In this document: positions 1,174-20,322 of the stretch, in pieces
Layout: the number at the start of each line of letters is the position of its first letter
Position numbering within the stretch: position 1 is the first letter of the stretch
Virus record (IMG/VR): IMGVR_UViG_3300037285_000075
Coordinates: 1 to 20,323 of that record
Direction: 5' to 3' (one strand)
DNA from: a virus
Length of the DNA stretch: 20,323 nucleotides
The notes under the pieces: generated by a model
What the model was told of the DNA's origin: nothing
The model's database searches: none
The model's input: the letters and a program-made list of their open reading frames with translations, nothing else
Translations under genes and position numbers: made by a program

Positions 1174-1389
1174 CTACAATCTAAATGTTATCCGTCCTTT
1201 GGATAGGTCATACGGTGTCATGTCTACCTTGACTCTATCACCTTGTACTAACCTAATTCTAAATTGTCTCATTTTTCCGCCAGTATAACACGTGACATAA
1301 TGTCCGTTGTCAAGCTCAACTTTAAATGTTTGATTGGGGAGTACCTCTACAATATTTCCTTCAATCTCGATTACTTCTTCTTTTGCCAT
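1174..1389 (-). CDS. infA: Translation initiation factor IF-1
   Basis: 71 residues, the normal length of bacterial IF-1. It matches the family end to end: MAKEE at the N-terminus, [23 protein letters not shown]-like [15 protein letters not shown], and the hallmark [17 protein letters not shown] at the C-terminus. This is the OB-fold (S1-like) domain that binds the 30S A site during initiation. In a phage it could bias host 30S subunits toward phage mRNA, but that is inference. It sits alone behind a strong promoter and a roughly 140-nt structured leader. An AAAGG ribosome site at 1400-1396 is 6 nt before the ATG. Host infA genes are single-copy chromosomal genes, so a full-length phage copy is unusual. 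Confidence 0.95.
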
Positions 1390-1527
1390 TCTCTACCTTT
1401 AGTGGACGCCCGTTAGCTACACAGGGTTGGAAACCTGCTTGTAACCCCTAACGTATATTGAATGCGTTAGGATTTAGTGTTTTAGCAATAGACCGCGACG
1501 GGCGAAGCGCGGCACTCTACTACATGT
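1390..1527 (-). ncRNA. Structured 5' leader RNA of infA, candidate cis-regulator
   Basis: From the predicted start of transcription (about 1526) to the infA ATG there are about 140 nt without a gene but with several complementary blocks. On the RNA: hairpin CCGCG (1512-1508) / CGCGG (1497-1493) with loop CUUCGCCCGU; the loop segment CGCCCGU (1504-1498) complements ACGGGCG (1413-1407), which lies 17 nt before the ATG, giving a pseudoknot; CCUAACG (1471-1465) pairs with CGUUAGG (1453-1447); the same block can instead pair with CUAACG (1416-1411). The last pairing overlaps the pseudoknot strand, so the two folds exclude each other. This is riboswitch- or autoregulator-like. Seen in sequence; the function is inferred. 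Confidence 0.6.
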
Positions 1528-1532
1528 AGTTT

Positions 1533-1561
1533 ATTGTATTACACAATTAACAAGATGTCAA
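1533..1561 (-). promoter_or_regulatory. Consensus sigma70 promoter of infA
   Basis: TTGACA at 1561-1556, a 17-nt spacer, then TACAAT at 1538-1533. The -35 box starts 3 nt after the stop of the upstream 50-aa gene. A perfect 12-bp palindrome, ACTACATGTAGT (1519-1530), covers the expected transcription start and could be a protein-binding site or the first RNA hairpin. Confidence 0.8.
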
Positions 1562-1563
1562 TC

Positions 1564-1716
1564 TTATTTTATTATGTGTTTCGGACTAAAGTCCTTGCCG
1601 TTTCTTTTTCGTTTTAGTGTTCGCTCTAATAAATGTCTTTTAAGCTTTTCGGCTTTCTTTAGTTTTCCTTGCGCTAGCATTGAATACATCAACATTTTTT
1701 CTTTTAGGTATTTCAT
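1564..1716 (-). CDS. Small basic protein (50 aa), unknown
   Basis: A 50-codon frame begins MKYLKEKMLMYSMLAQGKLK and ends SPKHIIK. It is very rich in Lys and Arg (about a third of residues), with an amphipathic helical N-terminal half and a basic middle (RTLKRKRNG). An AAAGGAATGAG ribosome site lies just before the ATG at 1716. It fills most of the gap between infA and the alpha/beta hydrolase, and its stop is 2 nt before the infA -35 box. Basic helical phage miniproteins often bind nucleic acid, but nothing here proves that. Confidence 0.65.
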   Translation of the reverse strand: MKYLKEKMLMYSMLAQGKLKKAEKLKRHLLERTLKRKRNGKDFSPKHIIK

Positions 1717-1738
1717 ATCTCATTCCTTTAGCTAAATA

Positions 1739-2407
1739 CTATTGGAGCATGAGGGCTTCGTATCGTGGTTGGATGATATGGGCTACGTCATTAGAACACA
1801 TAACTTCGTAGTGCGTGTTCTCGACATAGACGCATTCCATGTCATCCTTTCTTTGTTCCATACTTGCTACTGTTACAACACCGTCGTTGGGCGATTTCAT
1901 ATATGGAACAGTTCCAGTTGTGCTAATTATTTGTGTCCACGGAACATCAATTGGTATCTTGCCCGCTTCGATCATTGGCTGGCTCTTTACTCCAACATCT
2001 TTAAATAATGGATAACTTGGAATGACGTATTTGGCCCAGTCAGCAGCACTAGATCCTTTAAATGGTGTACTGATGCTTATTCCGCCGACTACATCACAAT
2101 ACTTGGTAAGATGTAATCCGTAGATTCCTCCCAAACTGTGGCCGATTACAAAAAGCGGGCCTTTGTTGTGAACAGAATTATATATAAGATCTAGATTGTC
2201 GTAGAAACTGTTTGTACTAGAATAGTCAATAAGTGTAGCAGGCCAATCAGGCAACACCATTCTTAAATAGTTGAAGCTTGTACTTGTTTGACCGGCACCA
2301 TGCAGCCACACAATATTAGGGCCGACATGCGTAGCCGCTTGATGTAATTCCGTTGACTCTATTTCAGGAGTCTTTCTTAAAAAACTAAATGACCAATCCA
2401 TATACAT
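1739..2407 (-). CDS. Alpha/beta-hydrolase (lipase/esterase-like)
   Basis: 222 residues. The family signature is clear: oxyanion strand IVWLHGAG (33-39), nucleophile elbow GHSLGG with Ser91, a likely catalytic Asp175 in NDGVVTV and His199 in ENTHYEVM. This is a complete Ser-Asp-His set in the expected order. The substrate cannot be read from sequence; esterase or lipase action on a small or acyl substrate is most likely. There is no signal peptide, so it should act in the cytoplasm. It directly follows the bilin reductase (2-nt gap), in one transcription unit with heme oxygenase. Start uncertain: ATG at 2407, or ATG two codons later at 2401. Confidence 0.8.
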   Translation of the reverse strand: MYMDWSFSFLRKTPEIESTELHQAATHVGPNIVWLHGAGQTSTSFNYLRMVLPDWPATLIDYSSTNSFYDNLDLIYNSVHNKGPLFVIGHSLGGIYGLHLTKYCDVVGGISISTPFKGSSAADWAKYVIPSYPLFKDVGVKSQPMIEAGKIPIDVPWTQIISTTGTVPYMKSPNDGVVTVASMEQRKDDMECVYVENTHYEVMCSNDVAHIIQPRYEALMLQ

Positions 2408-2409
2408 AT

Positions 2410-3096
2410 TTATTCAACTTCGGGAAATAGGCACTCTTGTATAAACATAGTTACATCATCTTCACTAAGCCCAAGACTTGTCATTGTTTTTGGAGTGTGC
2501 GGATTTTGTTTTTGATAGTGTGCATATCTATTCTGTGCAGCTTTGATTTCGTCTTGGTCCCCTGCAAAGTTGTATTCGCCAATTAGGTCTAGATATGCAA
2601 AAATGCTGGAAGAACTTAGATCAACTATTTGAGACAACTCTTCTTTCTTTTGTACATTGCCTGCTGCTACCATGTGTTCGCTAAAAATAGCCTCTGCCCA
2701 CTCGGGCAGCTTTCTTTTCTTTTTCCATTCGAGTGCATCGGTTTCGTCTCCAAATGCATCTATCATATCATGTGCTGGTTCAATGGATGCAGAATAGTCA
2801 TGAAAGAATCCTGTAACCTTATTCTTGCCTGCAATAACGTCAAGTCCAAAAATAGGTCCGTTGTTGTGAAGGTGAGGAAAAATGCAACAGTGCATCATCC
2901 ACAGCCCTTTGGTCTCTCTTGCGTCAACTACGTCTATGTGGGCACGGCGATATTTTTCTCCAGTCCAGACTCGGTTAATCCATCCTGGTTGATTAAACTT
3001 GGCCATTCCTGGCTCGAATATCTCTTTGCCTGTTTGTTCAAAGCTTTTGGTTAATTCTTCTTGTATTCCTGCTAGTGCAGCCCATACTTCACTCAT
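2410..3096 (-). CDS. pcyX: Ferredoxin-dependent bilin reductase, PcyX-type
   Basis: 228 residues, the usual size of the ferredoxin-dependent bilin reductase family. Family features: WMMHCCIFPHLHNNGPIFGLDVIAG (about 66-90), whose FGxDV aspartate (Asp86) matches the conserved substrate-protonating Asp, with nearby His69/75/77; LPEWAEAIFS (130-139); and the C-terminal Q.RY..YQ..NP.T pattern ending ECLF. Such enzymes reduce biliverdin IXalpha with ferredoxin electrons in the cytoplasm. The overall look is closer to PcyA/PcyX than to cyanophage PebS. Viral PcyX has been reported to make phycoerythrobilin, so that product is expected by family knowledge only. It lies downstream of heme oxygenase, which supplies biliverdin, and overlaps the 58-aa ORF by 8 nt. 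Confidence 0.88.
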   Translation of the reverse strand: MSEVWAALAGIQEELTKSFEQTGKEIFEPGMAKFNQPGWINRVWTGEKYRRAHIDVVDARETKGLWMMHCCIFPHLHNNGPIFGLDVIAGKNKVTGFFHDYSASIEPAHDMIDAFGDETDALEWKKKRKLPEWAEAIFSEHMVAAGNVQKKEELSQIVDLSSSSIFAYLDLIGEYNFAGDQDEIKAAQNRYAHYQKQNPHTPKTMTSLGLSEDDVTMFIQECLFPEVE

Positions 3097-3265
3097 CGGT
3101 GGTCTTCATATCTTTGTATCCGTAATGCAGATCCATTACACGCTGCCATAGAATGTCGGACCCGCCTTCTTTTTCAATAAAGTCGGCATACATTTTTAAT
3201 GCCACGGAAATCATTCCGCTGTCGGATTCCATTACATCTTCGCCTTCAGGGGATAGTTCATTCAT
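3089..3265 (-). CDS. 58-aa acidic ORF bridging heme oxygenase and bilin reductase
   Basis: Open frame of 58 codons starting MNELSPEGEDVMESDSGM and ending YKDMKTTDE. Its start lies inside the heme oxygenase 3' end and its stop inside the bilin reductase start, with an 8-nt overlap on each side. Such symmetric overlaps are typical of coupled real genes. The protein is acidic at both ends, with a probable helix (ISVALKMYADFIEKEG) and an aromatic patch (ILWQRVMDLHYGY). No family recognised. It could be a partner or chaperone for the bilin pathway, or an unrelated small phage protein. Confidence 0.75.
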   Translation of the reverse strand: MNELSPEGEDVMESDSGMISVALKMYADFIEKEGGSDILWQRVMDLHYGYKDMKTTDE

Positions 3266-3788
3266 TGCTTAGTTCCTTAAATAGCTGTATAGCAAACTGA
3301 AAACATCGATTTGCTTCGTCGGCCATGTCATCGGACAACTTTGCGCGTACAGTTGTCTTTAGTGCTTCTACATTGTCAAACTCGTACATCTTGCCACTGC
3401 CGGGATTTCTCTTGGAGATTATCTGGCCTCCATACATATCGCCAAAGTGGCGCACATAGATGTGAGCAAGAATGTCATTGGGGTTTGTTAGTGCTTCAAC
3501 ATAGTCAACGTATTCTGAAACAACATCACATACTACAGGATCGTTGAGTTTATGCAGCTTGTTGAGCTCGTCGATGTCATCATGAATACGGCTTCCTCTA
3601 CAAATCTCTTCGATACCAGTTAGCACGCCACGTTTTGTGGCATAATATTCTAATGCAACATAGATGTGATACTGATTAAACAAGTAACGATGATACTCGT
3701 TAGGAGACATGCCCAACAGTAACTTCCGGGCATGTTCTGTACGTTCGGCGTCCTGGTGGTATTTCCACGTCAGATCTTTTAGACTCAT
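3258..3788 (-). CDS. ho1: Heme oxygenase, biliverdin-forming
   Basis: 176 residues, all-helical HO-1 family. Likely proximal heme ligand His11 in the N-terminal KYHQDAERTEHAR segment, and the distal-helix signature HIYVRHFGDMYGGQII at 109-124 (family form H.YVRYLGDLSGGQ). The reaction is oxidative opening of heme to biliverdin IXalpha, CO and iron in the cytoplasm using ferredoxin electrons. It is shorter than cyanobacterial Ho1 (about 240) but includes the whole core. The start codon overlaps the ClpS stop by one base (TAATG). Downstream come the 58-aa ORF and the bilin reductase, forming a heme-to-bilin cassette. Confidence 0.93.
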   Translation of the reverse strand: MSLKDLTWKYHQDAERTEHARKLLLGMSPNEYHRYLFNQYHIYVALEYYATKRGVLTGIEEICRGSRIHDDIDELNKLHKLNDPVVCDVVSEYVDYVEALTNPNDILAHIYVRHFGDMYGGQIISKRNPGSGKMYEFDNVEALKTTVRAKLSDDMADEANRCFQFAIQLFKELSNE

Positions 3789-4087
3789 TAAGTTTCCTCT
3801 ATCTTAATTCTCAAAGGAAACCCATTTTCTCGACAAAGTGTAGTCGACTCAACTTTCTTTTGTTCTGCAATTTCGTGGCTGTATACACCAACAACGCCGC
3901 TGCCTTCCTTGTGGATTTGCATAGTAAGAGCATGTGCAGTATCGATTGTATGTTTAAACAACTCTGTCATCAACATTACAACAAAATCCATCGGAGTTGA
4001 ATCGTCATTTAGGAAGACAACTTTGTATTGGCTGGGCTCCTTAATTTTAACTTTTACTTTTTCTTCTGTGTTGATTTCTGTGGTCAT
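3788..4087 (-). CDS. clpS: ClpS, adaptor of the ClpAP protease
   Basis: 99 residues. Core signature YKVVFLNDDSTPMDFVVMLM (21-40), then HKEGSGVVGVYSHEIAEQK (59-77). The N-degron pocket residues of the family (Asn27-Asp28-Asp29 and His59) are present. The first 18 residues are a Lys/Glu-rich tail, as in bacterial ClpS. The role is delivering N-degron proteins to ClpAP; bacterial ClpS also blocks ClpA from degrading ssrA-tagged proteins. That is notable because the same window carries a tmRNA. It sits between bS21 and heme oxygenase in one operon. Host-protein turnover for amino acids, or redirection of Clp, are possible roles (inference). Confidence 0.93.
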   Translation of the reverse strand: MTTEINTEEKVKVKIKEPSQYKVVFLNDDSTPMDFVVMLMTELFKHTIDTAHALTMQIHKEGSGVVGVYSHEIAEQKKVESTTLCRENGFPLRIKIEET

Positions 4088-4097
4088 AATTACCCTC

Positions 4098-4325
4098 TTA
4101 GGTATCTAATTTAAGTTGATTTTTCTTGTATCTGCTGATTGCAGCTTTCTTTGCCTTGCGTTTCTTGGTGCCTTTGCTTTCAAAGGCTTCGCGCTGTCTA
4201 AGTGTCTGAAATACTCCGTCGTCAGCCAACTTCTTTTTTAATTTACGAAGTGCTCTTGGTACGTCGTTATTTCGGACTTCAACAGACATTCCGTGTTGAT
4301 AGTCAGACCTTTGGTGTTTACTCAT
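4098..4325 (-). CDS. rpsU: Ribosomal protein bS21 homologue
   Basis: 75 residues. The S21 pattern VEVRNNDVPRALRKLKKKLADDGVFQTLRQREAFESKGTKKRKAKK is clear, with a basic C-terminus. An extra roughly 12 residues (MSKHQRSDYQHG) precede the core. bS21 sits near the mRNA 3'-end/anti-Shine-Dalgarno site of the 30S subunit and is known to be carried by pelagiphages and other viruses, where swapping it in may favour phage mRNA. The start overlaps the upstream gene by 8 nt and ClpS follows after 10 nt, so these are co-expressed. Confidence 0.93.
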   Translation of the reverse strand: MSKHQRSDYQHGMSVEVRNNDVPRALRKLKKKLADDGVFQTLRQREAFESKGTKKRKAKKAAISRYKKNQLKLDT

Positions 4326-7336: not shown

Positions 7337-7403
7337 ATTGAATTCCTTTTTGTTATGCATTGTAACGTAGGAGCAATACTGACATTGCTCCTTAACAATA
7401 CTA

Positions 7404-7432
7404 ATTATACAACAAAAAACGCACTCAGTCAA
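7404..7432 (-). promoter_or_regulatory. Consensus promoter of the porin gene
   Basis: TTGACT at 7432-7427, 17-nt spacer, TATAAT at 7409-7404. The -35 box lies in the loop and right arm of the upstream terminator hairpin. A 5' untranslated region of about 60 nt follows, containing AGGAGCAAT repeats that may form a small hairpin (AGCAAT / ATTGCT). Confidence 0.82.
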
Positions 7433-7446
7433 GTACTGAGTGCGTT
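7413..7446 (-). terminator. Strong terminator overlapping the porin promoter
   Basis: AACGCACTCAGT (7446-7435) pairs perfectly over 12 bp with ACTGAGTGCGTT (7429-7418) around loop ACTTG, followed on the minus strand by a run of six T. It ends the unit containing the 59- and 85-aa genes. Confidence 0.85.
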
Positions 7447-7491
7447 CTATTTAAATAGTAACAAATGTGTTGCAAATTTGTAACAGTAATT

Positions 7492-7749
7492 TTACTTTCT
7501 ATTAATAGCCTTGGGGTTGGGTTTGGCCTTAGGTTTGGCCTTAGGTTTGGCCTTAGGTTTGGTCTTGGCTACAGGAAGTGGTGCAACATCTGAGTTCTGT
7601 TTTAGCCTACAGAGCAGCGGATCAATTGCAGCCTTTGATTGACTACGATTCCAATTAAAATGTTTTTCTACTTCTTCGTATGCATCGTTGACTTCTGTAC
7701 AACGGGCAATGATCTCGTAAAGCAGCTTGTCTATTTCGATCCAATTCAT
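7492..7749 (-). CDS. Small protein with C-terminal Lys-Pro-Lys-Ala repeats
   Basis: 85 residues from ATG 7749 (MNWIEIDKLLYE). Residues 1-58 form a helical, Trp-containing domain; residues about 60-81 are a repeat of PKAK/KPKA units ending NPKAINRK, resembling histone H1 tails and suggesting binding to DNA or RNA. The repeat is encoded by tandem 12-bp units (about 7519-7563). A frame open from 7779 would add ten residues, but these overlap the preceding gene, so the start is not certain. Confidence 0.7.
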   Translation of the reverse strand: MNWIEIDKLLYEIIARCTEVNDAYEEVEKHFNWNRSQSKAAIDPLLCRLKQNSDVAPLPVAKTKPKAKPKAKPKAKPNPKAINRK

Positions 7750-7753
7750 ATAA

Positions 7754-7933
7754 TTACTTGCTTTTTGCTGCTTTTTCATCTTTGGTAAGTTTTTGGTTCC
7801 AGCTGTTGTTGCTAATGCCTAATTCAGAGGCCATTGGCTTGGTTTTACCTTTGGTAACTTTGCCTCCTCCTTTTAAAAACGCATCAATCAAACTTTGTTC
7901 TGTGTTTGGCTTAGGTGGGTTGTTTAAAGACAT
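7754..7933 (-). CDS. Small protein with LIDAFLKGGGKV motif (59 aa)
   Basis: 59 residues from ATG 7933, with an AAGGATAA ribosome site. It contains EQSLIDAFLKGGGKVTKGK (12-30) and a basic end. The same short motif (LIDAFFDKGGEV) occurs in the 54-aa protein at 13885-14049, and this kind of sequence is common in small proteins of T4-like marine phages. Function unknown. It is followed at once by the Lys-Pro repeat protein. Confidence 0.7.
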   Translation of the reverse strand: MSLNNPPKPNTEQSLIDAFLKGGGKVTKGKTKPMASELGISNNSWNQKLTKDEKAAKSK

Positions 7934-8089
7934 TGCTTATCCTTGGGTTAAAATTTATATAACAGTTTCTGAGTGGTGCGTTTTGTATCCCACTATTTGC
8001 AATCTACTAGTACTAAAATGTTTGTATAGTACATCATTATTTGCCCAGCGGCCCAGACTATATCGTTATAGACTTTTTACAGTCTGTTA

Positions 8090-8128
8090 TTAAAAGTGTA
8101 CACAATAGGCAATGCCTGCTATGTACAC
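8090..8128 (-). terminator. Probable terminator hairpin downstream of tmRNA
   Basis: GTGTACA (8128-8122) pairs with TGTACAC (8102-8096); an inner AGGC/GCCT helix (8117-8114 with 8110-8107) caps it. CTTTTAATA follows. The T run is short, so termination may be weak, or this may be an RNA-processing hairpin. The stretch 7934-8089 holds no gene that I can support. It includes small inverted repeats such as CTATA-tcgt-TATAG (8058-8071). Confidence 0.5.
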
Positions 8129-8194
8129 GAGCAGCTTTTCTGTTACTAGGCAAGTTGTCAACCCTGGTAGCCCAATTTAGGCTGCGTTCCACTA

Positions 8195-8484
8195 GTACAG
8201 TATGTACCGGTAGCAAGTGAGGAGATTCTGTTGCTACGCTCTCCCCGGGCGCCACAGACTTAAGCCGCTAGGGCCATTTCTGTAGGAGCGAAATTTTCAT
8301 TTGCTTCTGTTAGTTGTATTCGCGGTAACGGCGCTTATATCCCGGATATCTAAGCTCATCTCATATGCATACGTCGATCCCTTTCGCCCCCATACTTGTA
8401 GTGCTATGGTGGAGGCGCTGGCCTCCGAGAGCCAGGTCCGTTCTACGTCAAAAATTGCCTACTAACTATCGAACCAATATCAAG
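8195..8484 (-). ncRNA. ssrA: Circularly permuted (two-piece) tmRNA
   Basis: Order on the minus strand: acceptor piece ending CGCCTCC-A-CCA (8417-8407), a 15-nt intervening spacer (8406-8392), then the coding piece starting GGGGGCG (8391-8385). The two arms pair over 7 bp (one G-U), forming the acceptor stem. The conserved GGGATCGACG follows. The resume codon GCA at 8304 begins a 14-codon tag frame, ANENFAPTEMALAA, stop TAA at 8262-8260. An H-type pseudoknot follows (GGAGA/TCTCC with GTAGCAA/TTGCTAC, 8244-8210). tmRNA rescues stalled ribosomes and tags the product for Clp proteases. Outer ends are estimated: the acceptor piece seems to begin near the stop of the upstream endonuclease (GATATT at 8481-8476 can pair with GATATC at 8350-8345). 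The T-arm loop is atypical. Confidence 0.92.
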
Positions 8485-9232
8485 AACGATAGTATTCCAT
8501 TTTTCTTCCTTTTAGCCATCCTATTGGAATTTCGCCACTTGTGCAACGATTTTCTTTTAGTTTTGGATTGTATATCCAAAAGTTACCATACTGTCCAGAC
8601 TTTCTTTTTCCAATGTCTCGTTGTTCTGAATTTCTGATCCATCCGTCTGGTATCTGCGCAATATCGAAAACTTTCTTATCTTCGTTGTATGATGTTGATC
8701 CTTTAGGGACACACCAACACTTGTTTTTCATGCTATTACTGTTTAGTTGATGTTCGGATACCAACTTGTATGATTCTTTGTATACATCTGGATTATCAGC
8801 TATTTTTTGTGCCTTTACTTCATTTGCATACTGACTTAGTTCACGGGTTCGATCATCATTTTTCTTAAATGGACCATCGACTGATACTCCTTTACGCTGC
8901 GCACTACCTTTATTACATGCTGCAATATGCGCTGCGCTGCCGTTGTTCCAATGATCCCATCCACCAAATCCGCCTTCTTTTATGTTGTACGTATCATCTC
9001 GACCAACAAATGCCGCGTTAACTAATTCTGCTTCTTTAAGATACATATCTTCTGGCGTATCACAATAACACAAAATCTCTTTGATAAAGCATTCTGTACC
9101 ATATTTAGTAATTGCAGCACTTACAATCTTACTTGACGACATATAGTTATCATCTACGTCAACTGTTTGATGCACACCTATGTAAATTTTGTTGTTTATA
9201 GTATTTGTTATCTTGTAAACTGTATATTTCAT
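8480..9232 (-). CDS. GIY-YIG homing endonuclease (free-standing)
   Basis: 250 residues. The N-terminal nuclease domain starts VYKITNTINNKIYIGVHQT (about 5-23), with the GIY and YIG elements as Y-K and YIG, and continues to about residue 95 (LVNAAFVGRDDTYNIKEGGFGG). The C-terminal half holds polar DNA-binding segments with two IPDGWIRN / IPIGWLKG repeats. Free-standing endonucleases of this kind spread by cutting alleles that lack them. Its stop codon touches the start of the tmRNA acceptor piece. The start codon is inside a hairpin just after a late-promoter box. AT-richer than its neighbours, as usual for mobile genes. Confidence 0.88.
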   Translation of the reverse strand: MKYTVYKITNTINNKIYIGVHQTVDVDDNYMSSSKIVSAAITKYGTECFIKEILCYCDTPEDMYLKEAELVNAAFVGRDDTYNIKEGGFGGWDHWNNGSAAHIAACNKGSAQRKGVSVDGPFKKNDDRTRELSQYANEVKAQKIADNPDVYKESYKLVSEHQLNSNSMKNKCWCVPKGSTSYNEDKKVFDIAQIPDGWIRNSEQRDIGKRKSGQYGNFWIYNPKLKENRCTSGEIPIGWLKGRKMEYYRS

Positions 9233-9245
9233 ACAGTTATTTATC
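9218..9245 (-). promoter_or_regulatory. Late box plus start-codon hairpin of the GIY-YIG gene
   Basis: GATAAATA (9245-9238) overlaps the arm AACTGTAT (9238-9231), which pairs over 8 bp with ATACAGTT (9225-9218). The ATG (9232-9230) sits in this hairpin. A late transcript starting about 6 nt after the box would begin at the ATG and lack the left arm. This resembles the T4 I-TevI control scheme. Confidence 0.5.
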
Positions 9246-9317
9246 TAAATGCTGGGTACTGGGTACTGCCCCCAAGTCCAGTATATGTTGTTGAATTGCT
9301 TCAACGTTACATGTATA

Positions 9318-9346
9318 TTTATACAATACTATAACTATCTTGTCAA
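9318..9346 (-). promoter_or_regulatory. Promoter of the GIY-YIG / tmRNA unit
   Basis: TTGACA at 9346-9341, 17-nt spacer, TATAAA at 9323-9318, extended as TATAAATA. The same 30-nt promoter, with two changes in the spacer, is found at 11140-11168. The 86-nt leader that follows contains tandem GGGTACT units (9254-9267) able to form a hairpin with GGGGGC. Confidence 0.75.
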
Positions 9347-9362
9347 GTGTTGAATTAATTTA

Positions 9363-9563
9363 TTATCTTTTAGGCATTGTTTGATGCATGTACTGCCTGC
9401 ATTGCATCTTTGACTCAGGGTCGGTTATTTCAATGAAGTGAAACTTATCTTCTAACATATGCACCAGCACCTGATTATCTGTCAGCCAAACAATCTGGCC
9501 ACCATGATTCATTCTTCCTGGGACAAGATTCTGCCACACTGAATAGCATCGCCTTCTATACAT
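9363..9563 (-). CDS. WLTD-family small protein, copy 1
   Basis: 66 residues. CY near the N-terminus, then GGQIVWLTDNQVLVHML (21-37), FHFIEIT (41-47) and YMHQT (58-62). The same order of motifs appears in the proteins at 11431-11649 and 11646-11855, so this is one member of a small paralogous family. A predicted beta-rich fold. Function unknown. It follows the hsp20 terminator. Confidence 0.72.
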   Translation of the reverse strand: MYRRRCYSVWQNLVPGRMNHGGQIVWLTDNQVLVHMLEDKFHFIEITDPESKMQCRQYMHQTMPKR

Positions 9564-9584
9564 CTATAATATTCTTGTTCCTTA

Positions 9585-9613
9585 ATAAAATGGGGGAGGT
9601 ATTTCGCTCCCCC
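9585..9613 (-). terminator. Terminator downstream of hsp20
   Basis: GGGGGAG (9613-9607) pairs with CTCCCCC (9598-9592) around an 8-nt loop, followed by ATTTTATT on the minus strand. It lies 10 nt after the hsp20 stop. Confidence 0.75.
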
Positions 9614-9622
9614 AAGACTATG

Positions 9623-10102
9623 TTACTCTTTGTCGTAATCGCCGAGTGTACCAACTGCATCAAATGTCTTATCACTATTGATATCAATCTTCTTAGGCTT
9701 TAGTGCTTCAGGTACTTCTCGCACTAGATGAATGTTTAACATGCCTAATTCTAAGCCTGCGTTTGATACATCTACATGTTCAGCAAGTGTAAACTCTCTA
9801 CGGAAGTTGCGGCCGCCAATACCTTTGTGTAAGTAGTTGACTTCTTCATCTCCTTTAGGAGCAGTTCCTTCAATCCGTAATTGATTACCGTCTTTAGTAA
9901 TCTCAAGATTGTCCATACCAAAGCCAGCCACAGCGACTGAGATCATAAACTCGTCTTCGTTGACTTGTGCGATGTTGTATGGGGGATAACCTTGTCCATT
10001 TGTGTTTGATCTGTTTACAAATTCAAGTTCGTTAAACAGTCTCTCAAAGCCAATAGTAGCTTTATGGAACTGAGGTAGGTCTAGTGTTTGTAGTCTTGTC
10101 AT
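9623..10102 (-). CDS. hsp20: Small heat-shock protein, Hsp20/IbpA type
   Basis: 159 residues. Alpha-crystallin domain from YPPYNIAQVNEDEFMISVAVAGFGMDNLEI (39-68) through the family signature LVREVPEALKPKKIDI (126-141), with GGRNFRREFTLAEHVDV in between. The N-terminus (LPQFHKATIGFERLFNEL) is the usual short amphipathic arm. It is an ATP-independent holdase that keeps unfolded proteins soluble. Hsp20 genes are standard in T4-like marine cyanophages and pelagiphages. Ribosome site AAAGGAGAAA before ATG 10102. Single-gene unit with a terminator. Confidence 0.93.
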   Translation of the reverse strand: MTRLQTLDLPQFHKATIGFERLFNELEFVNRSNTNGQGYPPYNIAQVNEDEFMISVAVAGFGMDNLEITKDGNQLRIEGTAPKGDEEVNYLHKGIGGRNFRREFTLAEHVDVSNAGLELGMLNIHLVREVPEALKPKKIDINSDKTFDAVGTLGDYDKE

Positions 10103-10137
10103 TTTGTTTTCTCCTTTAAAAAAGCAAGATTAAATAA

Positions 10138-10171
10138 TGAGACCCTTTACGGCATCTCACATTTATTTATC
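10138..10171 (-). promoter_or_regulatory. Late-type box and hairpin upstream of hsp20
   Basis: GATAAATA at 10171-10164 overlaps the end of the upstream gene. It is followed by a hairpin with arms TGAGA (10159-10155) and TCTCA (10142-10138). The hsp20 ATG is 62 nt from the box. A late promoter is plausible; the hairpin may instead end the upstream transcript weakly. Confidence 0.45.
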
Positions 10172-10622
10172 ATTTGCCTGCATACACTGCATTAAATTGC
10201 TGAGTACAACGAACAAACGTTGTGCATTTGCTAAGTTGCTTGAGCTTCAAAGCGCCTGCGTATGTACAGGTAGATCTTAGTCCTCCGGTTAAATCTTGTA
10301 TGGTTATACCAACAGAGCCCCTGTAAGGAACTAAGACTTCCCTGCCTTCTGATGAACGATAGTCTTTAAGTCCACCAAAATGTTTTGTGTTTGCTGCGTC
10401 ACTACTCATACCGTAGAACGCTACAAACTGTTTTTCTTCAATTACTGCTTTTGGTTCACCGACATCTTTATTACCTACTACAAATCCAGAACTTTTAACT
10501 TCAACTGTTGGTATACTGCGAATAACATCACCAGCAAAACTGTGGCCATTAACTACTTCGCCAAACAATGCAGCAGTTAATGCAAGCATGATTATAAAAT
10601 ATCCAATGTCACTTAAATTCAT
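10170..10622 (-). CDS. Membrane-anchored or exported unknown protein (150 aa)
   Basis: 150 residues. N-terminal hydrophobic segment IGYFIIMLALTAALFGEVV (6-24), which could be a membrane anchor or uncleaved signal, then a soluble domain of about 120 residues with VEVKSSGFVVGNKDVGEP, FVAFYGMSS and four Cys near the C-terminus (at about 118, 132, 139). The first 37 residues are nearly identical, also at DNA level, to the 55-aa protein at 13272-13439. Ribosome site CTGGAGAAG before ATG 10622. Function unknown. Confidence 0.78.
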   Translation of the reverse strand: MNLSDIGYFIIMLALTAALFGEVVNGHSFAGDVIRSIPTVEVKSSGFVVGNKDVGEPKAVIEEKQFVAFYGMSSDAANTKHFGGLKDYRSSEGREVLVPYRGSVGITIQDLTGGLRSTCTYAGALKLKQLSKCTTFVRCTQQFNAVYAGK

Positions 10623-10693
10623 TTTCTTCTCCAGTTGTTAGTAACATAACACCAAGATAAAAATTTATCAAACATTAAAAATAACCTTCTCAT
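10619..10693 (-). CDS. Possible 24-aa ORF bridging two genes
   Basis: MRRLFLMFDKFLSWCYVTNN followed by WRRK. The ATG lies inside the 3' end of the gene before and the stop overlaps the ATG of the gene after (ATGA). The overlaps fit a coupled gene, and the peptide would be basic and amphipathic. No ribosome site is obvious and 24 codons can be open by chance. Confidence 0.25.
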   Translation of the reverse strand: MRRLFLMFDKFLSWCYVTNNWRRK

Positions 10694-11034
10694 GATAATG
10701 TCATTAATGCCATGGTTCTATCTTGGTCAGTTTTAAACACTAACCAAAAGTCGTAATTTGCACGGCTTCCCCTGGAGGACCACAACCTATTATCAGCATA
10801 ATATCGTCGGCTCAAAGGATTATCCTTTGCAAATACTCTCTTAACATCTGGCTTAGTACTATATGCGGGTGTGTAAAAGTGATACTGCTTTGCAGCAGAT
10901 CCAAAAGCGGTTTTTTGTAGCATGTGCAGTGCTTCGTTAAATTGTTTTTTACTTATAATCATAATAGGATACGTCCATCCTAATTTAGACACATGGCTGT
11001 TTACATGTACTTTGTCGTCAAGTATTAACCTCAT
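10690..11034 (-). CDS. Unknown basic phage protein (114 aa)
   Basis: 114 residues from ATG 11034 (MRLILDDKVHVNSHVSKLGW), chosen because AAGGGA lies 8 nt upstream; a frame from 11052 would need a TTG start. Basic, aromatic-rich: YHFYTPAYSTKPDVKRVFAKDNPLSRRYY and FWLVFKTDQDRTMALM. No membrane segment. Looks like a small globular alpha/beta protein; no family recognised. Driven by the promoter at 11140-11168 with a 100-nt leader. Confidence 0.75.
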   Translation of the reverse strand: MRLILDDKVHVNSHVSKLGWTYPIMIISKKQFNEALHMLQKTAFGSAAKQYHFYTPAYSTKPDVKRVFAKDNPLSRRYYADNRLWSSRGSRANYDFWLVFKTDQDRTMALMTLS

Positions 11035-11139
11035 GATATTATCCCTTATCAATTAGTCGTTACGTCGCCCCCAGGTCCGTTTCATTTATTACAATCATCA
11101 ATAATGCAACAACCGATTACTCTCTGCTGCATGTATATA
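11035..11139 (-). other. Leader region of the 114-aa gene
   Basis: About 105 nt between promoter and gene. It holds GGACCTGGGGGC (11077-11066), close to GGACTTGGGGGC (9282-9271) in the leader behind the sister promoter, so the two leaders may share an element. A 16-codon frame starting at the ATG 5 nt after the TATAAATA box is too short to trust. Confidence 0.4.
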
Positions 11140-11168
11140 TTTATACACTACTATAACTATCATGTCAA
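11140..11168 (-). promoter_or_regulatory. Promoter of the 114-aa gene
   Basis: TTGACA at 11168-11163, 17-nt spacer, TATAAA at 11145-11140, extended as TATAAATATATA. Almost the same sequence as the promoter at 9318-9346. Confidence 0.75.
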
Positions 11169-11182
11169 GTATTATTTTAGAC

Positions 11183-11380
11183 CTAGGGACGACCTTGTTG
11201 CAAGCCGCCAGCATTTTCATTGTCAACGACCTCGTTGCCTGCATATTTTGTAGGCAACAGTTCAATGTTGGATGTATCTCGAGGGTTGCCGGCTGCTGTA
11301 CGGTCGTTTGCCGCAAGAGCAAGCTTTGCTTCTTGCTTTTCTTGTTTGGTTGTTAGTTGTGATATACCATTTGCGCTCAT
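11183..11380 (-). CDS. Small charged protein (65 aa), unknown
   Basis: 65 residues: MSANGISQLTTKQEKQEAKL, then a polar stretch with DTSNIELLPTKYAGNEVVDNE, ending GGLQQGRP. Predicted disordered to helical; no cysteine. Codon use fits the neighbours better than the overlapping frames at 11098-11322 or on the plus strand. There is no ribosome site, but TATAAATA (11393-11386) places a predicted late transcription start at the ATG itself, suggesting a leaderless mRNA. Confidence 0.6.
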   Translation of the reverse strand: MSANGISQLTTKQEKQEAKLALAANDRTAAGNPRDTSNIELLPTKYAGNEVVDNENAGGLQQGRP

Positions 11381-11385
11381 ACTAA

Positions 11386-11393
11386 TATTTATA
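11386..11393 (-). promoter_or_regulatory. TATAAATA late-type box
   Basis: Exact match to the T4 late-promoter core on the minus strand, 5 nt before the ATG at 11380. The upstream -35 region has only a weak TTGACA-like match, which favours the late class. Confidence 0.5.
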
Positions 11394-11430
11394 CAATGTT
11401 TGTAAATTAATATTAAGCTCTGATTTCATT

Positions 11431-11649
11431 TTAATTATTGCCGTTGATTTCATCAATTGTACGGTGCATAAATATTTCGTAACGTTTTTTAATATCGGCA
11501 TTGACAACTTCTACAAAACGGAGGCGGCCTTTTATTGTTTGTAATAAAAGTTCTTGGTCCGTTAGCCATATTACAAGGCCTGACACGTTTGTCGTTCCGT
11601 GGCAGCTATGCTTTTTGTAATGCGTGGCATAACATTTCTTTTCACTCAT
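11431..11649 (-). CDS. WLTD-family small protein, copy 2
   Basis: 72 residues: MSEKKCYATHYKKHSCHG, then LVIWLTDQELLLQTI (25-39), LRFVEVVN (43-50), IFMHRTI (58-64). It is co-linear with copies 1 and 3. The start overlaps the stop of copy 3 by 4 nt (ATGA), as expected for a tandem duplication that stayed coupled. Function unknown; three Cys in the N-terminal part may bind a metal. Confidence 0.75.
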   Translation of the reverse strand: MSEKKCYATHYKKHSCHGTTNVSGLVIWLTDQELLLQTIKGRLRFVEVVNADIKKRYEIFMHRTIDEINGNN

Positions 11650-11855
11650 CCGTCTACTGTCGGGCCTACAGTTTGATGCATGTAGACTTCGTTTAATTTT
11701 TTAATAGCGACGTTGGTTATTTCTACGAACAAATATTCGCCGTCTAATTGGTGCATCAACAGTTCGTTGTCAGTCAGCCAAACAATTTTTCCGCCAGCTT
11801 TAAAGTTGATTAGGAGATCCGTCCATTGGGCGTAGCAACGCTTTTCACTGTTCAT
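11646..11855 (-). CDS. WLTD-family small protein, copy 3
   Basis: 69 residues from ATG 11855 (MNSEKRCYAQWTDLLINF). The frame is open to 11948, but the paralogues begin at this Met and the upstream part overlaps another gene. Motifs GGKIVWLTDNELLMHQL, YLFVEIT and VYMHQT match copy 1 closely. It overlaps the divergent copy 4 by 11 nt. Function unknown. Confidence 0.75.
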   Translation of the reverse strand: MNSEKRCYAQWTDLLINFKAGGKIVWLTDNELLMHQLDGEYLFVEITNVAIKKLNEVYMHQTVGPTVDG

Positions 11856-12102
11856 GAGGTTCAAGAATGTTGTTGTATGTATGATCTGAAAGTTTTTCTC
11901 TAAAATGTTGTAGGGCGTCAGATTCGAGTATTTTAACCGCAAGTTCATTTGGGTAACGTATACTAAACAATAAATATTGCTTGTTGGATAACCAGATTAC
12001 ACGGCTATACGGTCCAGGAAACAAATCGATTGTAGTTACAAAGCATTGTATACGATTCTTAACTTTGGGAATGGTTGGTATTTGCGACTGCCATTTTTTC
12101 AT
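11845..12102 (-). CDS. Divergent WLTD-family-like protein (85 aa), copy 4
   Basis: 85 residues from ATG 12102, with AAGGT 6 nt upstream. It contains QCFVTTIDLFPGPYSRVIWLSNKQYLLFSI (18-47), where VIWLSNKQYLL lines up with the VWLTDNQ/ELL block of copies 1-3. The C-terminus (FREKLSDHTYNNILEPHEQ) differs. It is first in the tandem array, so all three copies here are probably co-expressed. Function unknown. Confidence 0.68.
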   Translation of the reverse strand: MKKWQSQIPTIPKVKNRIQCFVTTIDLFPGPYSRVIWLSNKQYLLFSIRYPNELAVKILESDALQHFREKLSDHTYNNILEPHEQ

Positions 12103-16282: not shown

Positions 16283-16374
16283 AAGCTCATACCGTTGAAG
16301 GTGTCGCCGTCTACGTCGCGCTTGGTGCCGCCGTTGACATAACTTGTGATTTCTGTTTCGTATGTATTAATCAT
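16279..16374 (-). CDS. Duplicated NrdB C-terminal tail (31 aa relic)
   Basis: A 31-codon frame: MINTYETEITSYVNGGTKRD, then VDGDTFNGMSL and TGA. Residues 8-31 repeat the last 24 residues of NrdB, with one change (Met for Phe before SL). The ATG overlaps the stop of the GIY-YIG gene (ATGATTAA), so it may be translated. Family knowledge: the NrdB C-terminal peptide docks on NrdA, and free C-terminal peptides inhibit some reductases. Whether this one has a role is unknown; it may only keep glutaredoxin translation coupled. Confidence 0.7.
   Translation of the reverse strand: MINTYETEITSYVNGGTKRDVDGDTFNGMSL
16292..16352. repeat. Direct repeat of the nrdB 3' end, distal copy
   Basis: 60 of 61 bp identical to 17508-17568, in the same orientation, including an exact run of 53 bp. 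The two copies flank the GIY-YIG gene. Confidence 0.95.
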
Positions 16375-17494
16375 TATTTATTACCTCTAATTTCCAACCT
16401 TTTGTTTTACCCTTTTTTGGGATCATCCAGTTTTTTTGTATTTGCATTTTTAACGTACTGTGACTTAAATTATGCTCCTTGCAATAGTCGCTTAATTCGC
16501 CGCCGTATAATATGTGCTCTTCATTATCCGGTGATGATAATTTGTAGCAGTGACTTCTCTTATTTAACTTGCCGGTGCGCAAGCTAGCTTTTTGCCCAAT
16601 TAACTCTTTAGCATGCGCAGACTGAGTCTTTCCATACATAGGGTTTCCTGAACCAGTATTAAGTTTTTTAAACAATTCCTTTGTTTCTTTACTGTGTTGC
16701 TTTGGGCCATAGCCGCCCCTATCTTTTTGTAATCTTGATCTCAAATCACGCTGCGCTTGTGCGTTTTCACTACCGTATATTTCTTCATAAGATTTACCTT
16801 TATGGTTAGGCGGTCGAGCATCTTTGCATATATTTGTCAAAGTGCCGTTCTTGTCATACCCTTTGCGGCCGTACTTTTCTATTAACACTTCTTCTATATC
16901 ATATGCTAACTGTTCATCGATGATATTTTCTGCAATATATTCGATAACAGGTTCTAAACCTGCTTTACGAATACTAGCTATTTTATTTTCTTTATACTTA
17001 TTTCTAGTCGAAGGAGTGGGGCGTAAATGCGTTGTTGCTCTACCGCCTTTTCCTTTACCAATATAAAACGGTTCATTTGTTCTTGGGTCAACTATCTGAT
17101 ATACATAAAACATATTATTAATCTCTTGTGTATTGTATTTAGCAAGAGACTGAGCATACCAGTTAGGTACACTATAATCTGTATTTTGTATCGAACTCCT
17201 TGCAAAGATAATAAAATCTCTATTATCCTTATAAGGTGTTACATCAACTAACATTTTGCCATTATTCCATACAGTATGTCGTATAGCTTGTAGCGTAACT
17301 CCTCCGTCAATTATATACCATCCTATAACTGGTGACCCTCCTTCTAACTGAGTATGCGTGTATACATTATTGTGACAGTTGTCATAATCGTACTCTGCTT
17401 CGGGTTCTACTAGTATTGCTCCTACCCAATTACAGTCTAGGCGTTTACTAAAACTTAGAATACTATCATTGATGTTAGTAGGAGTTGTCCACAT
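16367..17494 (-). CDS. GIY-YIG homing endonuclease with extra N-terminal domain
   Basis: 375 residues. The GIY-YIG domain begins MFYVYQIVDPRTNEPFYIGKGKGGRATTHL (128-157) and runs to about 235. The C-terminal part has modular DNA-binding segments (SYEEIYGSENAQAQRDLRS, GSGNPMYGKTQSAHAKEL, and a helix-turn-helix-like LSDYCKEHNLSHSTLK, 337-352). Residues 1-125 form a separate domain with DNCHNNVYTHT (38-48), VIGWYIIDGG and AIRHTVWNNGKMLVDVTP (70-87), a Cys/His-containing pattern not usual in homing nucleases. It starts 1 nt after the nrdB stop and is flanked by copies of the nrdB 3' end. Confidence 0.88.
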   Translation of the reverse strand: MWTTPTNINDSILSFSKRLDCNWVGAILVEPEAEYDYDNCHNNVYTHTQLEGGSPVIGWYIIDGGVTLQAIRHTVWNNGKMLVDVTPYKDNRDFIIFARSSIQNTDYSVPNWYAQSLAKYNTQEINNMFYVYQIVDPRTNEPFYIGKGKGGRATTHLRPTPSTRNKYKENKIASIRKAGLEPVIEYIAENIIDEQLAYDIEEVLIEKYGRKGYDKNGTLTNICKDARPPNHKGKSYEEIYGSENAQAQRDLRSRLQKDRGGYGPKQHSKETKELFKKLNTGSGNPMYGKTQSAHAKELIGQKASLRTGKLNKRSHCYKLSSPDNEEHILYGGELSDYCKEHNLSHSTLKMQIQKNWMIPKKGKTKGWKLEVINND

Positions 17495-18649: not shown

Positions 18650-18678
18650 AGTGTAACACGCCCCGATGGGCGTGTCAA
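18650..18678 (-). promoter_or_regulatory. nrdB promoter with palindromic spacer
   Basis: TTGACA at 18678-18673, 17-nt spacer, TACACT at 18655-18650. An 8-bp perfect inverted repeat ACACGCCC (18675-18668 on the minus strand) / GGGCGTGT (18663-18656) with a 4-nt loop fills the spacer and part of the -35 box. It is GC-rich in an AT-rich region. No T run follows, so an operator or an mRNA-end hairpin is more likely than a terminator. Confidence 0.65.
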
Positions 18679-19319
18679 TAGTTAAATGTGTATGACCAAA
18701 TATATCCTTTATATGGTCTATCTTTTTTCATATTGCGCCAAACTGACGCATGATTTATTATCTTGCCTGTGTGAGCTGTTATAAAGGCTTCGGCTTCTTT
18801 AAGACTCTTAAACTCAAATCTTTCTGTGCCGTCAACACTATTTACATAAGTTGTCTTCTTAAAAAACTCGCCGCCTGCATTTGGATTATTCTTTTTCATC
18901 CTTTCAGATGCAGCTTTTTTCTCCCAGTTTGCAATATCTGTCTTACGCAGACTTTTGTGTCCTTGTCCAGCAGTTCCGCTATTCCATGCGCCGCCTTTGG
19001 CAGGGTTGTTTATCTTCATTGCTAACGACCTAGCCGCTGTCATCTTTTCATAATGTCTAGACATATATGTTCTTTGCTGTTTCGGACCAACTCTAGACAT
19101 ACTACCAAATGCGTGTAACAGTTTATAATCTCTCGGATACATCTTAGTTAATAAGTAGTGTGCTAGATAATGTTCTCTAGCTGTTAACTTAGTAAGATTG
19201 TCGTTACTATCACTTCCTCCTAAACAACGAGGAAGAATATGATGTTTTTCAGTATATTCCTTTAACACTCGTTCTCTTCCTTGTTTGCATAATGCATCGT
19301 ATATTCTTTGGTAATTCAT
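18675..19319 (-). CDS. HNH homing endonuclease (free-standing)
   Basis: 214 residues. HNH core EKHHILPRCLGGSDSNDNLTKLTAREHYLAHYLL (24-57) with the His-His pair, Asn and His in order. The C-terminal half has DNA-binding modules (NNPAKGGAWNSG, KKNNPNAGGEFFKKT) and an AP2/NUMOD1-like FKSLKEAEAFITAHTGKIINHASVWRNMK (170-198). It stands between nrdA and nrdB, the same neighbourhood in which T4 carries the mobE gene. Its ribosome site is hidden in a hairpin (see 19318-19348). Confidence 0.9.
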   Translation of the reverse strand: MNYQRIYDALCKQGRERVLKEYTEKHHILPRCLGGSDSNDNLTKLTAREHYLAHYLLTKMYPRDYKLLHAFGSMSRVGPKQQRTYMSRHYEKMTAARSLAMKINNPAKGGAWNSGTAGQGHKSLRKTDIANWEKKAASERMKKNNPNAGGEFFKKTTYVNSVDGTERFEFKSLKEAEAFITAHTGKIINHASVWRNMKKDRPYKGYIWSYTFNY

Positions 19320-19381: not shown

Positions 19382-19933
19382 TCAGATATGACAAGATTCG
19401 CAATCTGAGTCGTCGTCTGCATCGACTTGCTCAAGTTCCGGTAATTCTTCTTCACCTAGCATCTTGTTGACATCAAGTTCTCCTTGACCGTCATATGTGT
19501 TAAAGTAGTATAACTGCTTGCCACCAAACTTGTAGAACATCACCATGTGCTGCAACATTACACTCATTGGAATCTTTTCATCTTCGTAAAACTCAGGATT
19601 GTAGCTGGTGTTAACACTGATGCCTTGGTCTATGTACTTTTGTAGCACGGCCATAATTTTTAGATATCCTTCGGGTGACTTTTGTGTCCAAAGAAGATCG
19701 TACTTGTTTTTAAGGCGCTTGTATTCCGGTACTACTTGCTTTAGTACTCCGTGCTTGCTTTGCTTTACACTAATAAATGCACGCGGAGGCTCGATGCCAT
19801 TTGTTGCATTTGCAATTTGCGCACTAGTGTTATGACTAATGCATCCATTTGACAAGGTATAAGTTTCGTTGTCAGTTGAAACATCCCAAGTGTGTTCTGT
19901 TCCTGCGTCTCTTGTAATACGTTTAATTTTCAT
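19382..19933 (-). CDS. nrdA: Split-intein C-half fused to C-terminal part of RNR large subunit
   Basis: 183 residues from ATG 19933. Residues 1-35 are an intein C-terminal half: MKIKRITRDAGTEHTWDVST followed by DNETYTLSNGCISHN, with the strand pattern of block F and the terminal His-Asn of block G. The +1 residue is Thr36. Residues 36-183 are the NrdA C-terminus: TSAQIANATNGIEPPRAF, VKQSKHGVLKQVVPEY, LYYFNTYDG, ending DCESCHI with the CxxC shuttle cysteines used by glutaredoxin/thioredoxin. The insertion interrupts the phosphate-binding PT.TSAQI loop. GAGGA lies 9 nt before the ATG. The N-part must come from another ORF beyond the window and be joined by trans-splicing. Confidence 0.9.
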   Translation of the reverse strand: MKIKRITRDAGTEHTWDVSTDNETYTLSNGCISHNTSAQIANATNGIEPPRAFISVKQSKHGVLKQVVPEYKRLKNKYDLLWTQKSPEGYLKIMAVLQKYIDQGISVNTSYNPEFYEDEKIPMSVMLQHMVMFYKFGGKQLYYFNTYDGQGELDVNKMLGEEELPELEQVDADDDSDCESCHI

Positions 19934-20322
19934 TTTAATAATTCCTCTTTTGTAATTGAACATTTTCCTTGTTTTGACACGTTATCTTCCCAGGGAATAA
20001 ATTCTAAATTTTGCAAGCTTCCTAATAGCGCAGGATCAATTCCTTCAATAAATCCTCGAGATATTGAGAATTTATGATCTAGATGATAGGCGTTGTTGAT
20101 ACCTGCTCGGCCTCTTTTTTCATAATTCACTAATAAATTTAGGTCATGTTGATTAGTATATTTCCATACTTCTTTGTGATACTTTTTATAATTGGATAAG
20201 TCACAATATGGAACCCAAATGCCATTTTCTTCTAATGTTTTTCTGATCTTTGATTGCCGTTCTTTAAAAACGTTTTCTCCTAGGTTATTAATTGTGTTGT
20301 GACCTCTATTTTCCTTTATCTT
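19930..20322 (-). CDS. HNH endonuclease lying in the intein break, 5' end beyond window
   Basis: 131 residues visible, open to the window edge. IWVPYCDLSNYKKYHKEVWK and the HNH core YHLDHKFSISRGF, then NLEFIPWEDNVSKQGKCSI, match HNH endonucleases common in T4-like phages. Its stop overlaps the ATG of the intein-NrdA gene by 4 nt (ATGA). It is either a free-standing endonuclease or the C-terminal portion of a protein fused to the N-terminal intein half; the window edge prevents deciding. Confidence 0.85.
   Translation of the reverse strand, partial: KIKENRGHNTINNLGENVFKERQSKIRKTLEENGIWVPYCDLSNYKKYHKEVWKYTNQHDLNLLVNYEKRGRAGINNAYHLDHKFSISRGFIEGIDPALLGSLQNLEFIPWEDNVSKQGKCSITKEELLK

Follow-up and report, generated by a model that had tools for sequence, protein, structure and literature searches.

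A permuted phage tmRNA gene beside a homing endonuclease gene and the remains of older tmRNA genes: probable replacement by homing

Results

Genomic setting of the tmRNA gene

Judging by gene content, we take the window, i.e. the whole stretch of DNA that was analyzed (20,323 nucleotides, a single metagenomic contig), to be part of the genome of a T4-like aquatic phage: It carries nrdA, nrdB, dCMP deaminase, Hsp20, IF-1, ClpS, bS21, heme oxygenase and a ferredoxin-dependent bilin reductase. Five viral contigs (L038-L042; the longest of 251 kb) are its closest relatives, with 85-92% identical DNA across most of the length compared, and the synteny with viral contigs of this size bears out the phage origin that an earlier note, made from the sequence, had ascribed to the tmRNA. 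In a DNA similarity search against cultured phages, the tmRNA had no match and, of the window, only nrdB was matched. IF-1, an alpha/beta hydrolase, the bilin reductase, heme oxygenase, ClpS and bS21 form a translation/proteolysis/pigment cluster at 1174-4325 (minus strand); the nearest NCBIfam model of the bilin reductase is phycocyanobilin:ferredoxin oxidoreductase.

The two-piece tmRNA

tmRNA is one of the most conserved bacterial RNAs. The earlier note had read a permuted two-piece tmRNA of alphaproteobacterial type from the sequence and proposed a covariance search as a check; this search located the two pieces on the minus strand, in the permuted arrangement. RF04321 (tmRNA_permuted) matched 8470-8260 with 79.8 bits (E 3.6e-14; all 213 model positions; gathering score 47) and RF01849 (alpha_tmRNA) matched 8518-8216 with 71.7 bits (E 4.8e-18; all 355 model positions; gathering score 50); ARAGORN reported no tmRNA in the window, though both models match. 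The CCA end, the 15-nt spacer, the 5' GGGGGCG, the paired acceptor arms, the tag ending in ALAA-stop and the pseudoknot were all found (Table 1). All seven acceptor-stem pairs are formed (7/7, with G-U at position 3) and the stem carries an ACCA end. Across 14 distinct phage tmRNAs, the acceptor-stem pairs, G3-U included, are formed in 98/98 cases (shuffled-partner maximum 94) and the T-stem pairs in 70/70 (shuffled-partner maximum 60). Judged by these sequence features, the two-piece phage tmRNA of the window is probably functional.

Table 1. Features of the tmRNA locus in the window (coordinates as positions of the window).
Feature	Position	Strand	Basis or remark
Strong hairpin with UUUU directly after it, probable terminator downstream of the tmRNA	8090..8128	-	fold and sequence
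Second pseudoknot-like element behind the tmRNA, motif CCUAGUAACAGAA	8131..8173	-	sequence; also in L039
tmRNA coding piece (acceptor strand, mRNA-like part, 3' pseudoknot)	8210..8391	-	covariance match and sequence
H-type pseudoknot, 7+7 bp (GGGGAGA/UCUCCUC and GUAGCAA/UUGCUAC)	8246-8210	-	read from sequence
Tag reading frame ANENFAPTEMALAA-stop (GCA..TAA)	8304-8260	-	ends ALAA
5' acceptor strand GGGGGCG	8391-8385	-	opens coding piece
Intervening spacer, 15 nt, CCA end to 5' end of coding piece	8406-8392	-	sequence
tmRNA acceptor piece (P2 strand, T-arm, acceptor 3' strand, ACCA)	8407..8470	-	RF04321/RF01849 alignments
Acceptor 3' strand CGCCUCC with ACCA	8417-8407	-	CCA end at 8407
Altered (type-2) T-arm CUGGC-UCUCGGAG-GCCAG	8435-8418	-	in acceptor piece
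Hairpin ACTATCG..CGATAGT across endonuclease stop codon and start of acceptor piece	8465..8493	-	sequence
Free-standing GIY-YIG homing endonuclease, Seg family, 250 aa	9232-8480	-	Pfam, PHROG, NCBIfam
Relic 2: older tmRNA without acceptor strand and CCA	9346-9259	-	RF01849 and similarity to L064
Relic 2, ordinary (type-1) T-arm	9279-9259	-	sequence
Relic 2, hairpin GTTGAAGCAATTCAAC	9305-9290	-	sequence
Relic 2, promoter TTGACA-17-TATAAAT	9346-9316	-	sequence
Hsp20 gene, probable cargo of the insert	9623..10102	-	Pfam HSP20
ORF, 120 aa, no assigned function, first gene past relic 1	10690..11052	-	ORF list
Relic 1: promoter and 5' acceptor piece of resident tmRNA	11168-11066	-	near-identical to intact L039 from -10 region to junction
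Insert/replacement, 2785 bp versus 195 bp in L038-L042	8281..11065		blastn synteny

The tag had been expected to identify the host. This attempt failed: ANENFAPTEMALAA is an ordinary alpha-type tag, and alphaproteobacterial tags are too variable to serve as a host marker, so the tag was rejected for this purpose. The view that a tmRNA is unusual in a lytic phage is contradicted as well: According to the accessible text of PMC9004378, 53 of 133 unique phage tmRNA structures are two-piece, 50 of these from marine or aquatic phages, and among 50 related viral records, picked mostly for carrying bilin reductase, 39 contained a permuted tmRNA above the cut-off, which makes the phage-borne permuted tmRNA a common trait of this group. 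The window tmRNA is therefore of an already known kind, described in marine phages in the same text. As a search of 21 related phage records turned up no SmpB gene, the RNA would have to rely on the SmpB of the host. The earlier note suggested as roles that the phage copy may substitute for host tmRNA, alter the tag or keep ribosomes recycling late in infection. Variants of the permuted gene occur among the bilin-reductase phages: In L259 it has a long intervening segment (the match spans 464 nt), and the long intervening segments of L267 and L279 hold a second tRNA-like T-arm with CCA.

A homing endonuclease gene abuts the tmRNA

The earlier note was silent on three features of the locus: A homing endonuclease gene (HEG) abuts the tmRNA, a pair of broken tmRNA copies lies upstream, and the tmRNA itself is a chimera. 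The HEG product contains a GIY-YIG nuclease domain (Pfam SegE_GIY-YIG, 28.2 bits) and matches PHROG 314 (E 3.8e-39); its score against NCBIfam grpIintron_endo (38 bits) lies under the cut-off of that model, a PDB sequence search gave weak matches only, and the predicted structure is poor (pLDDT 53.5). By the patterns used, relatives were found in 19 IMG/VR contigs; in these and the window (20/20) the HEG is followed in the same orientation by a permuted tmRNA, with 27-42 nt (40 nt in the window) separating the HEG stop codon from the GGAC ahead of the T-arm. The contigs represent six lineages: the window, the L118 group (13 contigs), L132, L312/L313, L031 and L316. The reading frame is intact in the window, L118 and L312 despite their divergence, decayed in L132, 5'-truncated in L031 and reduced to the C-terminal part in L316; between the window and L118, the C-terminal half is clearly more conserved than the nuclease half. 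Hairpins similar to that across the HEG stop codon of the window occupy the same position in L118, L031 and L312. The HEG is polymorphic in presence and absence: It is missing in L038-L042 and L064, and the flanks have been exchanged and are chimeric.

Broken tmRNA copies and the inserted block

Upstream of the HEG, the window, the L118 group, L132 and L312 share a succession of TTGACA, 16-17 nt, TATAAAT, a hairpin and GGAC with a T-arm, but no CCA end; broken T-arm and promoter are thus present in all four lineages that retain the 5' side of the HEG, and no relic was found upstream of the 5'-truncated HEG of L031. In the window this copy (relic 2) matches RF01849 with 13 bits (E 6.1e-4) and the intact tmRNA gene of L064 with 78% identity over 92 nt (E 7e-11). 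The relic T-arm follows the promoter at 35-37 nt, as in the intact tmRNA genes of L064, L260, L262, L266 and L271; these empty sites carry the same promoter 35-36 nt ahead of GGAC. T-stem pairing is kept at 14/15 positions of the relics (window, L118, L132). The motif GGAC..GGGGCRGTRCC was encountered 24 times in 3.1 Mb (strand-bases) of phage loci, namely in 9 intact tmRNAs and in 15 relics before this HEG, all 15 with the promoter, and not once outside these two settings.

The second broken copy (relic 1) is the 5' part of a resident tmRNA. In L038-L042 a single intact tmRNA gene (tag ATDNANTVEMALAA) occupies the site and the 2.8-kb insert is missing; in the window this gene is split, its 5' part lying at 11168-11066, broken in mid T-loop (directly after CGGACCTGGGGGCG; GGACCTGGGGGCG), and its 3' part continuing from about position 8280. 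The block in between comprises the HEG, relic 2, the 5' part of the window tmRNA, Hsp20 and small ORFs; Hsp20 was not found in the L039 and L040 contigs. Immediately ahead of the Hsp20 start lies a ROSE_3-like RNA thermometer (10097-10161, minus strand; 31.5 bits, E 5e-4, under the gathering score of 43). A further ORF of the insert (10170-10622, minus strand) is similar to IMP dehydrogenase in the C-terminal part alone (PF00478 positions 249-336), and small ORFs that look paralogous and share a WL[TS][DN]..LL-like motif occur on the minus strand both inside the insert (9363-9563) and outside of it (11431-12102). No integrase was present among the insert ORFs, and searches for group I introns gave no match, either over the whole window with the gathering score as cut-off or over 7400-11500 with E values of up to 5 allowed. 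Two candidate explanations were rejected on these grounds, i.e. a group I intron in the tmRNA (no ribozyme core around the HEG) and an integrase-type genomic island at the tmRNA (no integrase gene in the insert).

Chimeric make-up and T-loop types

The window tmRNA is, by its sequence, a recombinant chimera whose 3' end is of the resident type and whose remainder is not. The tag itself is mixed: Its last codons (EMALAA) are those of the resident L039 type and the rest is of the donor type, with the breakpoint at about 8285-8280. Sites of the coding piece shared with L064/L262/L031 and not with L039 lie left of about 8285, the L039-only sites right of it (informative sites 14:4 versus 1:25 around the breakpoint; Fisher 3.5e-7; 0/500 permutations). 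L028 constitutes a second chimera: Its first 112 nt are identical to L118 and are followed by an L260-like pseudoknot (33 nt, 94%), and this identity with subsequent difference marks the exchange as recent. Both switches are located at or near the tag, the tRNA-like domain being kept together.

In a set of 120 bacterial (alphaproteobacterial) tmRNAs gathered irrespective of the T-loop, the ordinary loop GGGGCRGTRC was exact in 117 and represented by close variants in the other three. The window tmRNA departs from it with UCUCGGAG; the ordinary loop is usual but not defining, and the variant is compatible with tmRNA. The tmRNAs behind a HEG have the T-loops UCUCGGAG, UUUCGAAG, UUCGAA or similar, and type-2 loops are the only ones in all six HEG lineages: The HEG accompanies 6/9 type-2 and 0/12 type-1 lineages (Fisher, p 0.0015, from small lineage counts made by hand). 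Type-2 loops also occur in phages that do not carry the HEG (L034, L295, L298), and the altered loop is therefore neither a product of the HEG nor exclusive to it.

Discussion

The order of an older-tmRNA 5' remnant, a HEG and a complete tmRNA with another T-loop is present in the window and three other phage lineages. We consider it probable that a SegB-like HEG enters phage tmRNA genes of the ordinary kind at the T-arm and that its own tmRNA, presumably resistant to cleavage, takes their place; the window tmRNA, too, has probably been put in place by homing, the order of the elements being seen directly in the sequence and the cleavage being inferred. The endonuclease would cut tmRNA genes that bear the ordinary T-arm (GGAC..GGGGCRGTACC), and the break would be repaired from a HEG-bearing phage, with crossovers presumably located in the tmRNA homology near the tag on the right side and at the T-arm on the left. 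The incoming tmRNA would be spared because its T-loop differs (GGCTCTCGGAGGCC and the like): The distribution of loop types would be explained most simply by a HEG site that comprises the ordinary T-arm and by an immunity due to the altered loop. The captured promoter (TTGACA-17-TATAAAT) would then drive HEG and tmRNA jointly, and the RNA would act as any two-piece tmRNA with host SmpB, i.e. with an Ala-charged acceptor piece and an ALAA-ending tag in the rescue of stalled ribosomes. As its two relics are of different tmRNA types, one of them resident-type, two separate events are indicated; the window apparently preserves the traces of two takeovers, of which one left relic 2 by the HEG and the next moved the resulting block into an L039-like phage.

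A single old insertion of the HEG together with a replacement acceptor piece, followed by vertical descent and loss, with an endonuclease that is no longer active and with chimeras produced by the usual homologous recombination of phages that have an RNA gene in common, is an unlikely but serious alternative. It would accord with the likeness of all lineages in architecture and AT-rich HEG leader, with the decay or truncation of the HEG in L132 and L031, and with the mosaic nature that phage genomes have anyway. However, the difference in type between the two relics of the window points to two events, the HEG frame has stayed intact, though diverged, in the window, L118 and L312, and the abrupt end of the L118/L028 identity after 112 nt speaks for recent exchange. 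Part of the shared architecture may nevertheless derive from one ancestral insertion and vertical descent rather than from repeated homing.

It is very improbable that the arrangement is an assembly artefact in which two phage populations were joined at a shared tmRNA sequence. The right junction does lie within a stretch identical to L039 (GAAATGGCCCTAGCGGCTTAA) and the window is one metagenomic contig only, but little sequence is common at the left junction, the outer flanks are both L039-like, and other contigs share the architecture (13 contigs of the L118 group, L312/L313 and the 150-kb contig L132). Hardly any weight is given to an ordinary phage tmRNA with the HEG as a chance neighbor and the upstream T-arm as a chance hairpin: The Rfam match of relic 2 taken alone is weak (13 bits) and the broad HEG family is common in T4-like phages (767 records), but the tmRNA lies within 42 nt of the HEG in 20/20 contigs, the T-arm motif has no background matches, and relics and intact genes have promoter, spacing and hairpin in common. 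Site-specific integration at the tmRNA T-loop in the manner of genomic islands and group I introns is equally implausible, for although relic 1 ends in the T-loop, a known region of group I intron insertion in tmRNA (PMC11915505), the right junction is placed in the tag and the insert has neither an integrase nor a group I intron match.

Replacement by homing at the T-arm has a far-reaching extension, which we regard as speculative and rather improbable: HEG and altered tmRNA might form a linked 'cut and replace' pair that destroys tmRNA genes with an ordinary T-arm in rival phages and in the host chromosome, the linked uncuttable tmRNA taking over ribosome rescue. The host chromosome would be a target as well because the T-arm motif is nearly invariant in alphaproteobacterial ssrA.

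Among known systems, the closest model of the HEG is SegB of T4/T6, a free-standing GIY-YIG endonuclease of the tRNA region that, as far as the accessible texts describe it, favors the inheritance of that region (Brok-Volchanskaya 2008, cited in PMC10448857; PMC13096335); intronless homing is known for Seg enzymes (PMC2988022). Both are Seg-family GIY-YIG proteins encoded beside phage translation-RNA genes. Unlike SegB, the window HEG has a permuted tmRNA as its putative target, is nested in what is left of the gene that it would have invaded, and comes with a substitute bearing an altered T-arm. HEG islands with cargo (PMC10448857) resemble the window in that a nuclease gene marks the edge of the phage DNA that was exchanged, and in the possible cargo (here Hsp20); tmRNA is not mentioned there. 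The group I introns of tmRNA genes (PMC11915505) share the insertion at the T-loop, whereas in the window no ribozyme was found and the gene is replaced, not spliced. The permuted two-piece tmRNA of the OM43 phage Melnitz is similar in RNA class, alphaproteobacterial type and the aquatic, myophage-like genome, and differs in the glutamine riboswitch of its 3' domain; in the accessible text of that report (PMC9004378), no adjacent HEG, remains of older tmRNA or chimerism are described for phage tmRNAs. A partial literature search of titles and abstract openings found no earlier report linking HEGs to phage tmRNA (ssrA). What is new here is the repeated tie of the tmRNA to a HEG nested in the remains of tmRNA genes, together with the chimerism; the underlying processes are known.

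Why phages carry their own tmRNA is an open question in the field. The repeated targeting by a HEG, the altered and presumably immune replacement and the successive takeovers suggest that competition between phages, and not only a benefit during infection, keeps and reshuffles tmRNA genes. As tags and tmRNA halves are swapped between phages, trees of phage tmRNAs and the host guesses derived from them need caution. The T-arm provides a directly testable target sequence, and the relatives offer a clear present/absent pair.

Nuclease genes are also found elsewhere in the window. Two further homing endonuclease genes flank nrdB on the minus strand (16367-17494, GIY-YIG with NUMOD3; 18675-19319, HNH type). 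The nrdA fragment (19382-20322, minus strand) begins with the C-terminal splice region of an intein (...CISHN|TSAQ; NCBIfam intein_Cterm, 16.6 bits at a cut-off of 15.6), and a separate ORF before it looks HNH-like by eye and matched no family; the region resembles a 'fractured' split-intein nrdA whose two halves are separated by a nuclease gene.
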